A DNA stretch of 64,000 nt from Polytrichum commune. Its lineage: Eukaryota > Streptophyta > Polytrichopsida > Polytrichales > Polytrichaceae. Every line of letters starts with the position of its first letter. Position 1 is the stretch's first letter. Both the position numbers and the translations under genes were made by a program. The notes below the pieces were generated by a model. It was not told the origin of the DNA and did no database searches. It saw only the letters and a program-made list of their open reading frames with translations. The stretch covers positions 6,016,001-6,080,000 of the forward strand of contig OX485804.1 in assembly GCA_950295325.1 (NCBI GenBank), in the 5' to 3' direction. Positions 45,421 to 59,296 of the stretch are shown here, in pieces.

Positions 45421-45845
45421 CTAATATTTATTCTGTTGGTATTGATTGGTTGATTTCTATTCATCTTTTGTGTAGTAGGATTGAGCCAACATAGTGTATG
45501 GCATAAGTGTTTATTGTTTTGAATGCGTTTTTAATGGAGGTTTCGGGAAGTAAAAAAAATTGTTCATATTGTTTCATTGAGGGGGTATGTGTAGTTCCTC
45601 TAGCGCCAACCATGATGACTATGAGTGGGTCTACTTTCCATCCTTGCTGGATGAGGCAGTTGATTACTAGTTGGTATTTTTGGGTTTTGTTGTTTATTGT
45701 TTATTGTGAGAATTTGTCATTAGTGTATGTGAGTTCTATAAATTATATTGTGAGGTTGTCTACTGGGGCTAATGGTGGAGTACTCAGGTATGGAAGTCCT
45801 TTAATACATAGTAAGCCGGATTTTAATATGGCGTTACCTCCATTA
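45421..45845 (-). mobile_element. LINE 3'-end fragment, inverted relative of the element at 54890
   Basis: Read on the minus strand it matches about 58160-58677: the last part of the ORF and the 3' tail, including the CAATAAACACT and CAATCCT-CTACACAA strings. It is truncated at its 5' side at about 45845, typical of 5'-truncated LINE insertion. The frame is broken in places. Confidence 0.8.
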
Positions 45846-46007
45846 AATGCACATATATACTCTCATGAGCCACATCTTATCAATAGAGATCAGACAATAT
45901 CCTCACGTATTGTATCATCCTCAATATCGGCATATGAGGGTTTTGTCAATACATTATCACCACATTTTGAGCACCTAGTGAAGACTTCCATCACTTCCTC
46001 AAAAGCA

Positions 46008-52671: not shown

Positions 52672-52878
52672 TATCCTGCAGACATGAAAGTTATACCCTC
52701 ATTTGCTAGCCGAGGAGGTAAGAATTTTTTTAAATAAAATTTTAAGTCTTTTGCAGAAGGCGAAGAAATCAACCCCCACCTTGTTTCCATTCGGTATCCA
52801 CCAAGCGGTGCGGCATGCATTTTAGATCAACAGTAGCTTATGCGTATCATTACCACATCGCTGAAGCAGATGGCAGTT

Positions 52879-53133
52879 GCAGGCATGTATCGTTTAATTG
52901 CAGGCATGTATCATTTGATCGCAGGCATGTATCGATTGATCGTCGCAGGCATGTATCGATTGATGGTAGGCATGTATCGATTGATTGCAGGCATGTATCG
53001 TTTGATTGCAGGCATGTATCGATTGATCGCAGGCATGTATCGTTTGATTGCAGGCATGTATCGATTGATCGCAGGCATGTATCGATTGATTGCAGGCATG
53101 TATCGTTTGATTGCAGGCTGCTTATTGCAAGGG
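52879..53133. repeat. 21-bp minisatellite, 11 full units plus a partial one
   Basis: The unit is GCAGGCATGTATCGATTGAT plus one base. Copies start at 52879, 52900, 52921 (24 bp), 52945, 52966, 52987, 53008, 53029, 53050, 53071 and 53092, with a partial one at 53113. CGATTG and CGTTTG variants alternate. Because the unit is a multiple of three and lacks stops in several frames, long repetitive open frames appear on both strands. Confidence 0.95.
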
Positions 53134-54688: not shown

Positions 54689-54889
54689 TTCAATGGTAAG
54701 TCACAATAATATAACCTCATTGCTAATGAGGCTTTTGCAATGTTTTTGACTTCCAAGTTAATTACATGCTTTATTGATGGCTTCACTTCGAAAAGGAAAT
54801 CCCAATGAATTGGTCAATTACTCAATGAATTGCTCATTTATTCAATGCAAGTGAACATATATATTGGATTTTGAACCAAACATCCACTA

Positions 54890-55680
54890 CAGAAACCAAC
54901 CACTACCCGTCTTACACCAAAACAAATCATAAGTATATTTAGGCATACAATTAGTACCATCATTAAAATGGAAACTCCAAACACACATCACCACAACCAA
55001 AATGATAAACCAATGCAAATTACTAACAAACTGCCCAGCTACAATCAAACAAAAAATAAGTATGGTAAACACTGTCATCAGAGCCGGTATAGCATATAGC
55101 TTTTATGCAGTCTCATACTCAATGTCAGCTATCAAAATATTAGACAAAAAAATTATAGGAATCCAAAAAGTAATATGTGGTCTACCTAAATGTACAGCAA
55201 ACATAATAACCCAACTACCACACGACTTGTTTGGACTAGAAGCCTTCTCATTAAAAAATGCCTACCTAAGATGTATTAGCGAACAACTCAGAAATACACT
55301 TAATGATCCCGGCAGACTTGGCATAATATACAAAGGACTTATATAACATATCTTTGCAAAATATGGAGGCGCATAAGACATACAAAGAATCAAATACTAC
55401 GACTGCACAAGATCACCTACAACACGAACACTATTTCTTATGGGAAAAAAGGAGGAGCTCACCTCAAAAGCATAGAAACAAATTTCCAGCTCCATACAAC
55501 TGAACTTGAAACAGAATGGAAATCCCAGACCAAATTCGTACTACGACAACTAAACAAAGAACTATCTCTTAAATTACTATATAAACTCCTAACACTAAAC
55601 ATACAAAAAAATAAAACACATTTCTCTTCCCAATGGCACACACTTAATGTCACCAACAGACTTTCAAACCTACTATAAAA
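54890..55680 (+). pseudogene. LINE reverse transcriptase, C-terminal (thumb) remnant
   Basis: Residues SLKWKLQTHITTTKMINQ, then ISMVNTVIRAGIAYSFYAVS, then KIIGIQKVICGLPK match the part of RT after the catalytic palm in plant LINEs. The catalytic YADD box would lie upstream of the truncation and is missing. The frame closes at 55344 and the following 300 bases carry stops and at least one frame change. Confidence 0.7.
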
Positions 55681-55697
55681 CCCCGACAAAACTAATA

Positions 55698-57503
55698 AAA
55701 AACGCACTACACATAGCAGAACAATTTTTCTGCCAACAAAGTTGTAACCAAAACTGTCCAATCCAATGTAATAGACACCCACAAGCCCGCACACTCTAAG
55801 AAAAATACATATCAGATAATAGAGAATTACTACCCAGAATCTTGGACAACCCCTTACACCCGCCACCAACACAACAACCCCAACAACCAAACCCACCCCC
55901 CAACATAACAAATAACCCAATCAAATTCCCCATATACAACATACTAAACCACAGAGCAAACATAACGAAAGACAAATATAAAATAACAAAAAAATTTAAC
56001 ACATACCTACGCCAATGGTCACTCCAAAACAACGCAATATACTGCAAGTGGATGCCACAAAAAGAACTATTCCCACCAAAACATCCCTTAGTAATCGAAC
56101 ACAACATAAACCTACTAAAAGAATATTATACAAGACAACAACACAACCACTACAACAAACTAATACATACCCATATAACCCCCATACAAACCAAAGACCC
56201 AAGATTCATACCACCACCTACAATAACATCACACACCCAAATATCAATAATAGAATGCAACCCAGAAAGAAACATTAATACAACGAAACATATTATACAA
56301 ACACAAAACGAAATAACACACATATACGAAGACACAGGGAGATATCTCATAACCATCCCAACCACCAGACTAAATTGGCTATGGCAACAATACAACAAAG
56401 ACACCTACAAAACATACGGCCTAATACCACCTCCACAACCATTTGAAACTGAAGTAGTCTGGCTATATCAAAGATATAACTCTAAAATACCAAAAAAAGA
56501 TCCACTTAAAACATCTCCATACATTCTCCCACAAAAACTCCTTGACTCCATTACAAAAGCATTTAACATTTCACACTCCTACTTCTCTTCACCAATAACA
56601 TGCTCTACACATATTACAAAATATTTCTCACCATTCACCAGAGATAAAAATTTTGGATCATTAGGCACCGCTTTCCAATACAAATGGCACGGAATTGGCT
56701 ATGCCCACCCACAAAACAAAGAAATGACTCAACAAGCAATACACTAGGCACGCCTAGTAGCCAGAAATGACCCAGACACCGTCACACTAATAGTCACACC
56801 AGACACAAATTGGTATCAAAACTACTCACCACATACAGGACCGTTCTCAGACACACATGTCCTAGCCCATTTCGCCGCAGATACCATTACATACGACGTA
56901 CCAACAAACCCTCAAAACCTCAATAAACCACAAATAGAACCATTAGCAATACCTATACTTTGCATCCACCACCAACACAATAATTTTGGTACTCCCAACC
57001 AAATAGACACAATCAAAACAACAATAGAAAACCTATAAATAGCACAAAATCATATACAAACAACCCCACCCACACCAAACAATACACCCGTAAACAAGAA
57101 CACTAAATGGAACAAACTACTCTACCCACCACATAATAACCCATCAATTACACCCATACCACCAATACCAAACTACGAAACCCAACACACATTAAAATTC
57201 CTACCACAATATAGCTATTACACAGACGGTTCGTTTATCCCACCCATGAAAGCTAATGACGGGCATTGGAAGAAAGAAAAAGTTGGATATGGTATCTATA
57301 ACCCAACGAAAATAGACATACGTATATCAAAAAGACTGTCCGGCCTACAAACCAACTTTAGAGCCGAATTAATGGCCATACACAAAACCCTCAAAATAAT
57401 CACAACCAAATACCCGAACGAACCTGCACACATATTTACAGACTGTCTAAATTGCCTATATGTAATCAACACACTAATAAAACACCCAACTCATCATAAT
57501 TAA
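55698..57503 (+). pseudogene. LINE ORF central part with methyltransferase-like region and first half of RNase H
   Basis: One frame runs from about 55698 to 57503, interrupted by in-frame stops at 55797, 56745 (TAG where Trp is likely) and 57036. It opens with a C-x3-C-x3-C-like cluster (FFCQQSCNQNCPIQCNRH), then a Pro/Gln linker. Next comes a region at about 56560-56910 with SPF-RDKNFGSLG, GIGYAHPQNKE and VTLIVTPDTNWYQ blocks that resemble a phage Dam-type adenine methyltransferase with the NPPY-type motif changed. RNase H begins at YYTDGSF (Asp codon at 57225), then FRAELMAI and IFTDCLN. Confidence 0.7.
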
Positions 57504-57534
57504 TAACCATGCTGACAAAATCATACTGACATCT

Positions 57535-58461
57535 ATGGTTGAAATGTTAAAAAACCGAACACAACCCACTACGATATATAAAGTAAAAGCACACATACAC
57601 ATTGACGGAAATGAACAAGCTGACCAACTTGCAAAGCAAGGCACTAAAAAGCAATATAGATTTGTTGCCAAAACATATGAATTTGCACATATCACACCAT
57701 ACTACTTCCAAAAAGACACATGGCCGGGACCCAACAAAAAACATGACAAAGGCCCAGTCCGATGCCTTAAAACATACCTCACTAAACACGATAGAGATAA
57801 CAACCTAAAAAAATTGGCAATACAATTTCCCAACATTAACAAATGGACAACAAATCCAGACATAGACAACGAAATATCTAATCACTTCTGGTCTAACCCC
57901 ATAATAACAGATTCACAAAAGACTAATATCCTAAAATTCCGTACCAGACAATATATGGGTAACGCTAGAAAACAACTATTCTTTGGCAGAGAAAGATTCC
58001 CATCCATTACATGCCCAATCTGTAACTCACCAGATGCGGACACATGGCTACACGTACTATTAAAATGCAACCAACATCACATACACGTCCTCAGAACCAA
58101 AAGACATAACAAAGCAGTATGGGAATTAAAAAAACTAATTCTATCATCACGAAAGTCAAGATGCTACACCCTCATGAACGCAGGAACATTTAACAACAAC
58201 CCACAAGAAAATACAGTCCCAACATGGCTTCTAACATGTACATGTACACAACAAAGATGCCACTGCAACGCTAGACTCAAACCTGACCTTCTATGTATAA
58301 AAGAACTCCCGCACCAAAGCACCCCACCACCACATCCAACCAACAACCTAATGGTACAATTCATCGAATTTATATACACTAATGATAGATTCTCACAAGA
58401 TACAATCAACAACAAAATCCAAAAATACCAACCATTAATTAACGACATCACCCAACAATGA
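57535..58461 (+). pseudogene. LINE ORF end: RNase H second half and C-terminal Cys/His segment
   Basis: Follows the previous part after a 4-nt insertion at about 57502-57507 that shifts the frame. It carries the last RNase H acidic site (HIDGNEQADQLAKQ), then a CPICNSPDADTWLHVLLKC motif (a C-x2-C-x11-H-x5-C zinc-binding pattern), then CTCTQQRCHCNARLKPD and a tail YQPLINDITQQ. It ends in a normal stop at 58459-58461. The antisense open frames here are shadows. Confidence 0.8.
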
Positions 58462-58703
58462 TGGAAAGTAGACCCACTTATAGTCATAACAACAGGAGCT
58501 AGAGGAACCACGCACATCCCATCAGTGAAACAACTTGAACAAACATTTAAAAATACCCGAAAACAATGTTAAAAATACATTCAAAGCAATAAACACTATT
58601 GCCATATAATTCGCTAGTTCAATCCTCCTACACAAGAGACGTATTGAAAACAATCAAAGAATCCCCACAGAATAAATGAGCCAAGACAAAGAAAACAAAT
58701 AAA

Positions 58704-59296
58704 GACATAAATAGCGGTTTTTGCAAAAAACATACTTAGAGGTAAAATGTTTTTACATAAATAGCGGTTTTTGCAAAAAACATACTCAGAGGTAAAATGT
58801 TTTTACATAAATAGCGGTTCTTGCAAAAAACATACCCAGAGGTAAAATGTTTTTACATAAATAGCGGTTTAAAAAAAAAAAACACACTCAGAGGTAAAAC
58901 ATTTTTACATAAATAGCGGTTTTTGCAAAAAATATACTTAGAGGTAAAATATTTTACATAAATAGCGGTTTTTGCAAAAAACGTACTTAGAGGTAAAATG
59001 TTTTTACATAAATAGCGGTTTTTGCAAAAAAACATACTCAGAGGTCAAATATTTTTACATAAATAGCGGTTTTTGCAAAAAACATACTCAGAGGTAAAAC
59101 GTTTTTACATAAATAACGGTTTTTGCAAAAAACGTACTCAGAGGTAAAACGTTTTTACATAAATAACGGTTTTTGCAAAAAACGTACTTAGAGATTAAAT
59201 TTTTTACATAAATAGCGGTTTTTGCAAAAAATATACTTAGAGGTAAAATGTTTTTATATAAATAGCGGTTTTTGCAAAAAACATACTCAGAGGTAA
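58704..59296 (+). repeat. 50-bp satellite, 12 tandem units
   Basis: The unit is ACATAAATAGCGGTTTTTGC followed by AAAAAACATACTCAGAGGTA and AAATGTTTTT. Spacing is 49-52 bp. Units differ at a few positions (CATACT/CGTACT, TCAGAGG/TTAGAGG, AGCGG/AACGG). It starts less than 30 bp after the end of the LINE tail. Confidence 0.95.

Follow-up and report, generated by a model that had tools for sequence, protein, structure and literature searches.

A LINE of Polytrichum commune carries in its ORF2, between RT and RNase H, a domain whose homology to the catalytic region of PCIF1/CAPAM (PF12237) is well supported by sequence comparison. The NPPF catalytic motif of that family is replaced in every copy that we aligned, and the domain core is under purifying selection. 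What use might a retrotransposon have for a methyltransferase domain of this kind? We lean towards an account in which a CAPAM-like domain was captured and, its NPPF replaced, would have been kept as an RNA-binding pseudo-methyltransferase module of ORF2.

The LINE copy in the window

By the window we mean the whole stretch of 64,000 nucleotides that was analysed. The LINE copy in it extends from 54879 to 58672 and corresponds, in several frames, to ORF2 residues 1658-2919 of a long relative, L009. Its features are as follows.

54879 to 55448, plus strand: RT thumb/connection part of ORF2, 83% identical to L009 ORF2 residues 1658-1847
55800 to 56747, plus strand: open frame with the linker and the first half of the PCIF1/CAPAM-like domain, terminating at the TAG of 56745-56747
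56436 to 56690, plus strand: direct match to PF12237 (PCIF1_WW), profile positions 18-102 of 176, 34.4 bits, E 2.1e-8
56691 to 56723, plus strand: GIGYAHPQNKE, the site of the PCIF1 catalytic NPPF in alignments of the copies and human PCIF1
56748 to 57038, plus strand: open frame past the TAG that encodes the remaining half of the domain (TVTLIVTPDTNWYQ, THVLAHFAADTITYDVP, CIHH), from the frames and the copy alignment
57210 to 57645, plus strand: RNase H (PF00075), split by a frameshift over two frames (E 4.8e-7 for 57210-57482, E 5.8e-4 for 57538-57645)
58012 to 58068, plus strand: C-terminal CX2CX9HX4C motif (CPICNSPDADTWLHVLLKC), read from the sequence
58535 to 58672, plus strand: C-terminal end of ORF2, L009 residues 2874-2919

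The original prediction had described three blocks, ordered as in a phage Dam-type N6-adenine methyltransferase, between the RT remnant and the RNase H domain of a plant LINE. The blocks are present as described: SPFTRDKNFGSLG (56628-56666), GIGYAHPQNKE (56691-56723) and VTLIVTPDTNWYQ (56781-56819) share one plus-strand frame, and they are flanked by RT-thumb sequence (from 54879) and by the RNase H domain (57210-57645). The assignment to a plant LINE is likewise borne out. Between the second block and the third the frame is interrupted by a TAG at 56745-56747, so that the window copy is broken within the domain. The copy starts behind the RT catalytic YADD (L009 residue 1596), the APE and most of the RT being absent, and in a comparison with L009 ORF2 no further ORF2 match was found upstream of 54879 on the same strand. 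Because of this start and the frameshift in RNase H, the window LINE is a dead, 5'-truncated insertion. The CX2CX9HX4C motif, which we take to be zinc-knuckle-like, is without a Pfam match.

Copies in the genome and structure of the LINE

The genome searched comprises 408 Mb in 64 contigs, seven of them of 42-78 Mb. The search with PF12237 gave 697 candidates, and the cut-off was passed by all 150 of the places scored, with up to 55.6 bits and with long open frames at many of them; 150 is a lower bound, because the window copy is not among these places. Two of the places, L027 (C3:874345) on a chromosome and C24:11558 on a small contig, have the same scores and frame lengths and are perhaps an assembly duplicate. 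The loci L001-L050 were fetched and represent 49 distinct copies, L002 lying inside L009. They are not a random sample, because they were drawn from the scored list, mainly for high PF12237 scores and long frames. The core alignment has 46 rows, the window and 45 other copies, each of which covers the core in one piece; left out were L001, L006, L008 and L021, which are interrupted in the core, and the duplicate L002. In this alignment the three blocks of the window copy are found again in all 45 of the other rows. At 80% core identity the 46 copies form seven clusters, of 26, 8, 6, 3, 1, 1 and 1 members, with a minimum identity of 52%. A second alignment, A1, holds twenty copies without internal stops, spread over the clusters. 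When A1 was used to seek relatives in sets of virus and prokaryote contigs, 7 and 43 stretches, respectively, matched the pattern and none was confirmed.

In the long copy L009 an upstream frame without a Pfam match is followed by a frame of 2,919 codons that encodes APE (PF14529, PF03372), RT (PF00078), the PCIF1-like domain (47 bits with PF12237) and RNase H (PF00075, 58.6 bits). The family is thus an APE-type non-LTR retrotransposon (LINE). A DIRS element was considered and rejected, as a tyrosine recombinase had no Pfam match in the pieces of L009 (E up to 1; one copy). Five long copies, L009, L010 and L062-L064, one from each of five clusters, all have an NPGP 2A-like peptide, with MPN after it, as well as YADD, GYAHP and TDGS, although stops or frame changes occur in L062, L063 and L064. 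The core of the 2A-like peptide reads GDIETNPGP in L009, L063 and L064, and GDIKPNPGP or GDIHPNPGP, with the E replaced, in L010 and L062; the published core is given as (D/G/C/N)(V/I)ExNPGP (PMC12846837). The RT (YADD) and RNase H (TDGS) motifs are canonical in these five copies, while the methyltransferase motif is replaced.

Homology to PCIF1/CAPAM

Six frames of the window were scanned against Pfam-A at E up to 10, and the frame that bears the blocks has one significant match, PF12237, at 34.4 bits against a curated cut-off of 31.1. As had been proposed, what lies between RT and RNase H is a methyltransferase-like domain. The frame past the TAG, taken alone, has no significant Pfam match (best E 0.038, DUF7590). 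All twenty copies of A1 match PF12237 in a Pfam scan at E up to 10, the best with E 5.6e-14, and matches in some other copies reach profile positions 144-173 of 176, one of them covering positions 13-173. Despite its name, PCIF1_WW is described as the CAPAM-like methyltransferase and not as a WW domain (PMC7641849). CAPAM is PCIF1, which N6-methylates the adenosine adjoining the m7G cap, the human NPPF being residues 553-556 (PMC7927073).

The comparison with known structures points the same way, though its direct matches are weak. The A1 profile, run against 177,635 distinct PDB sequences at E up to 10, has two matches, zebrafish PCIF1 (6irx_A, E 0.022) and human PCIF1 (6irv_A, E 0.28), and in the human alignment the yahPh of the LINE faces EANPP. 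Both proteins share with the LINE domain the blocks FxSPxxC and SxFxxDxxFGSxG, and YFSSPxTC and FGxxG are mostly invariant across the twenty copies. The match to PCIF1 spans the methyltransferase part only; the helical domain of CAPAM was not detected N-terminal to the core and may be diverged, and the pieces of L009 gave no match to a WW domain (Pfam, E up to 1). Run alone against PDB, the window protein did not find PCIF1 and had a chance match to anillin (E 1.4), and an AF2 model of the translation of 56259-57038, built from this single sequence with W in place of the TAG, has a mean pLDDT of 33.7, too low to inform on the fold. In the reverse direction, the genome was searched with a fragment of zebrafish PCIF1, and 11 places matched with E no higher than 0.01, at 34-39% identity and with a best E of 7.5e-4. 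Of these, nine overlap PF12237 places; among the 150 places scored, out of 216 candidates, there was no stronger match that would be a canonical host PCIF1.

Could the match to PF12237 be an effect of chance or composition? The LINE coding strand is A/C-rich and G-poor, with a GC skew of -0.45 and an AT skew of +0.38 in window 56001-58000 and GC skews of -0.39 to -0.48 in the five long copies, and such a bias affects the amino acids as well. Yet the core profile gives 21.8 and 17.8 bits to two PCIF1 fragments, the best of 10,000 shuffles of each score 9.4 and 7.5 (7,235 and 6,874 shuffles were scored, and none reaches the real value), and the reversed fragments score -3.2 and -2.8. The shuffles are a control for composition and are not independent of the PDB match, because the same fragments had matched there. 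As the PDB matches are to PCIF1 only, and the two shared blocks align, we regard a compositional artefact as scarcely credible. Ahead of the 2A-like peptide, the great length of the open frames may owe something to the G-poor strand.

The family link made in the original prediction, to the phage Dam-type enzymes, did not hold. If the domain descended from Dam-type N6-adenine DNA methyltransferases of phages or bacteria, the similar order of blocks around the NPPY-type position would be accounted for, and Dam-like methylases are known from DIRS retrotransposons (PMC5890265). The profile searches speak against it: no Dam profile appears among the Pfam matches at E up to 10, in the six window frames scanned or in the twenty copies, PHROG gave nothing better than E 0.06, and PF12237 is the one strong match. 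The catalytic motif of Dam-type enzymes, which we take to have the form [DNS]PP[YFW], occurs in none of the 46 copies. A Dam origin thus seems extremely improbable, and homology to PCIF1/CAPAM is the assignment that we carry forward.

Loss of the catalytic motif and selection on the domain

At the NPPF site the 46 copies, all ungapped there, read YAHPH in 42 cases and YAHPP, YAHPY, YGHPY and YAHPQ (the window) in one case each; NPPF occurs in none. None of the 46 copies retains the N or the F, and the second P survives in a single one, L009, which reads HPP. The alteration of an NPPY-type catalytic position, recognized from the window alone, is thus a property of the whole set, and since NPPF is replaced in all 46 copies of seven clusters, the loss is a family trait and not the decay of one copy. 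AHPQ, which had been taken as the changed motif, is real in the window, but it is peculiar to that copy, the usual motif of the family being YAHPH. One would think that selection of copies by PF12237 score should favour any that bears NPPF, and none was seen.

Estimates of dN/dS by the Nei-Gojobori method were made for 36 copies (630 pairs), keeping pairs with a core dS of 0.15-1.2. The median dN/dS is 0.084 for the core (204 pairs), 0.10 for the upstream linker (191 pairs) and 0.33 for the short downstream linker (199 pairs), values that come from non-independent pairs and that changes after insertion push up. The core is therefore under purifying selection. For the window copy compared with L009, core dS is 0.95 and dN 0.18. 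A low dN/dS is not peculiar to the methyltransferase-like part, because the upstream linker is almost equally constrained. The codons of the replaced motif itself vary synonymously in the 36 copies whose codons were read.

These results bear on the suggestion that the domain is of no use, a decaying piece of a captured gene that travels as a passenger, its resemblance to PCIF1 being immaterial to the LINE. The stops and frameshifts of the window copy and the loss of the catalytic motif are what such a passenger should display. Elsewhere in the genome, however, seven clusters with core identities down to 52% retain a near-identical motif through synonymous codon changes, dN/dS of the core is low, and long frames are open at many of the scored places. 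We consider simple decay very unlikely.

A harder question is whether the domain might still be a methyltransferase, one with an unusual active site (HPH, or HPP in L009) that methylates the LINE RNA, the cap-adjacent nucleotide or another substrate. The conservation just described (median dN/dS 0.08) and the mostly invariant YFSSPxTC and FGxxG of the twenty copies would suit an enzyme, and the general motif has been written [DNSH]PP[YFW], which permits H in first place, as in the HPP of L009 (PMC7927073). Against this, N and F are changed in every copy and the second P in nearly every one, and methylation is reported to be lost in the N184A, PP/AA and F187G mutants of METTL16 (PMC7927073). 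In Drosophila PCIF1 the F of NPPF is changed to H, which could explain the missing m6Am there; in honey bees, where m6Am is reported as not found, the change to Y is judged an unlikely cause (PMC9479742). Because the METTL16 mutants are inactive and the Drosophila change offers a precedent, canonical N6-adenine transfer would be unlikely in the LINE domain, and we rate continued enzymatic activity of an unusual kind as improbable.

Possible functions

If a captured and altered CAPAM-like domain was indeed kept for binding RNA, the following steps may be envisaged. The catalytic region of PCIF1/CAPAM would have been taken into ORF2, between RT and RNase H, and there would have given up canonical N6-adenine transfer. 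It would then have become an RNA-binding module of the LINE ribonucleoprotein, holding the LINE's own transcript, perhaps by its 5' end, beside the RT. Holding the transcript in this manner would favour cis preference or complete copying. The non-catalytic module of the original prediction survives here in part: with NPPF replaced the domain is probably not an ordinary catalyst. Where DNA binding had been suggested for it, the family that it matches acts on RNA.

Does the domain read the cap itself? It might be a pseudo-methyltransferase reader of RNA 5' ends, attaching to the capped end of the transcript, which may bear m6Am, and so coupling the identity or completeness of the template to reverse transcription. 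In CAPAM, recognition of m7G is attributed to the methyltransferase domain together with the helical domain (PMC7927073), and cap binding in particular is unsupported for the LINE, because no helical domain was recognized on the N-terminal side of the core. The residues that contact the cap in zebrafish PCIF1, Arg239, Arg269 and Glu563 (PMC7948815), could not be assigned to positions of the LINE domain's own sequence. We think a cap reader rather doubtful. If true, it would be a retroelement-encoded reader of the cap or of a cap modification. The broader proposal of an RNA-binding pseudo-methyltransferase bears on how a LINE recognizes its own RNA. A methyltransferase-independent role has been claimed for PCIF1 (PMC12896973), and the loss of NPPF in every examined copy, combined with purifying selection, makes the LINE well suited to testing what the PCIF1 fold can do without catalysis.

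Relation to known elements and proteins

APE-type LINEs with 2A/StopGo peptides were reportedly described by Odon et al. in 2013. The present LINE resembles them in its APE, its RT and the 2A-like GDIETNPGP in ORF2, and differs by the addition of the CAPAM-like domain. From PCIF1/CAPAM itself (6irv, 6irx), with which it shares sequence homology, the blocks FxSPxxC and SxFxxDxxFGSxG and the location of the NPPF site, the LINE domain differs in its replaced motif (mostly YAHPH), in that a WW domain was not found in L009 and a helical domain was not detected, and in its position within a LINE ORF2 instead of a host gene. Drosophila PCIF1 is a further member of the family with an altered catalytic motif; there F alone is changed, whereas the LINE, a mobile element, has changed N, F and nearly always the second P (PMC9479742).

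Accessory domains in retrotransposons are a phenomenon of a known kind; helicases, for example, are reported in insect LINEs (PMC6338049; PMC4686597). Among elements with methylation functions, the DIRS elements with Dam-like enzymes likewise combine a retroelement with an accessory domain of the N6-adenine-methyltransferase type, but they belong to another element class and their domain is Dam and not CAPAM-like (PMC5890265). The retrotransposons SymbioLINE-Dnmt, which are LINEs, and Gypsy-Dnmt3 of K. nitens likewise keep a methyltransferase domain under purifying selection; theirs are cytosine DNA methyltransferases, placed in the LINEs in the ORF upstream of RT (PMC5890265), in contrast to the present relative of an RNA adenosine methyltransferase, which lies inside ORF2 with its catalytic motif replaced. 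The orchid Gypsy element with an AlkB m6A RNA demethylase is also a plant retrotransposon with a domain for RNA N6-adenosine modification, though it is an LTR element whose domain is an eraser, active in vitro (PMC9289625), where ours is a LINE with a writer-like and probably inactive one. Among the matches listed from the open-licence PubMed Central literature, none describes a retrotransposon with a PCIF1/CAPAM domain. Retroelements are known to have acquired Dam-like enzymes (DIRS), DNMTs (LINEs, Gypsy) and an m6A eraser (orchid Gypsy); with a relative of the cap m6Am writer in the ORF2 of a LINE, RNA modification at the cap end would join them.

Other features of the window and assembly

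A further 3' fragment from this LINE family, shorter than the first, lies on the minus strand of the window (45431-45919), with 163 C-terminal ORF2 residues that are 56% identical to L009. A tandem array of a 50-bp unit, about 11.8 copies long, occupies 58705-59296, starting 33 bp past the end of the ORF2 match at 58672. Two exact probes of this unit were not found in any of the fetched loci, and the unit is therefore not general to the LINE family. A 21-bp tandem repeat of about eleven copies, open in several frames, lies at 52877-53118.

In the assembly, TTTAGGG repeats are present at three of four sampled chromosome ends and absent at the C2 end. We read contig C8 as the plastid genome. It has a full rpoB-type gene, rpoC1-type and rpoC2-type genes in two pieces (Pfam) and a NifH/chlL-type gene (PF00142, 382.8 bits); chlL has been lost in flowering plants, which makes a non-flowering host most likely. 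Alongside this plant plastid contig the assembly includes an intron-interrupted cox1 at L051 on contig C9, which to us looks fungal and possibly comes from an associated or contaminating fungus.
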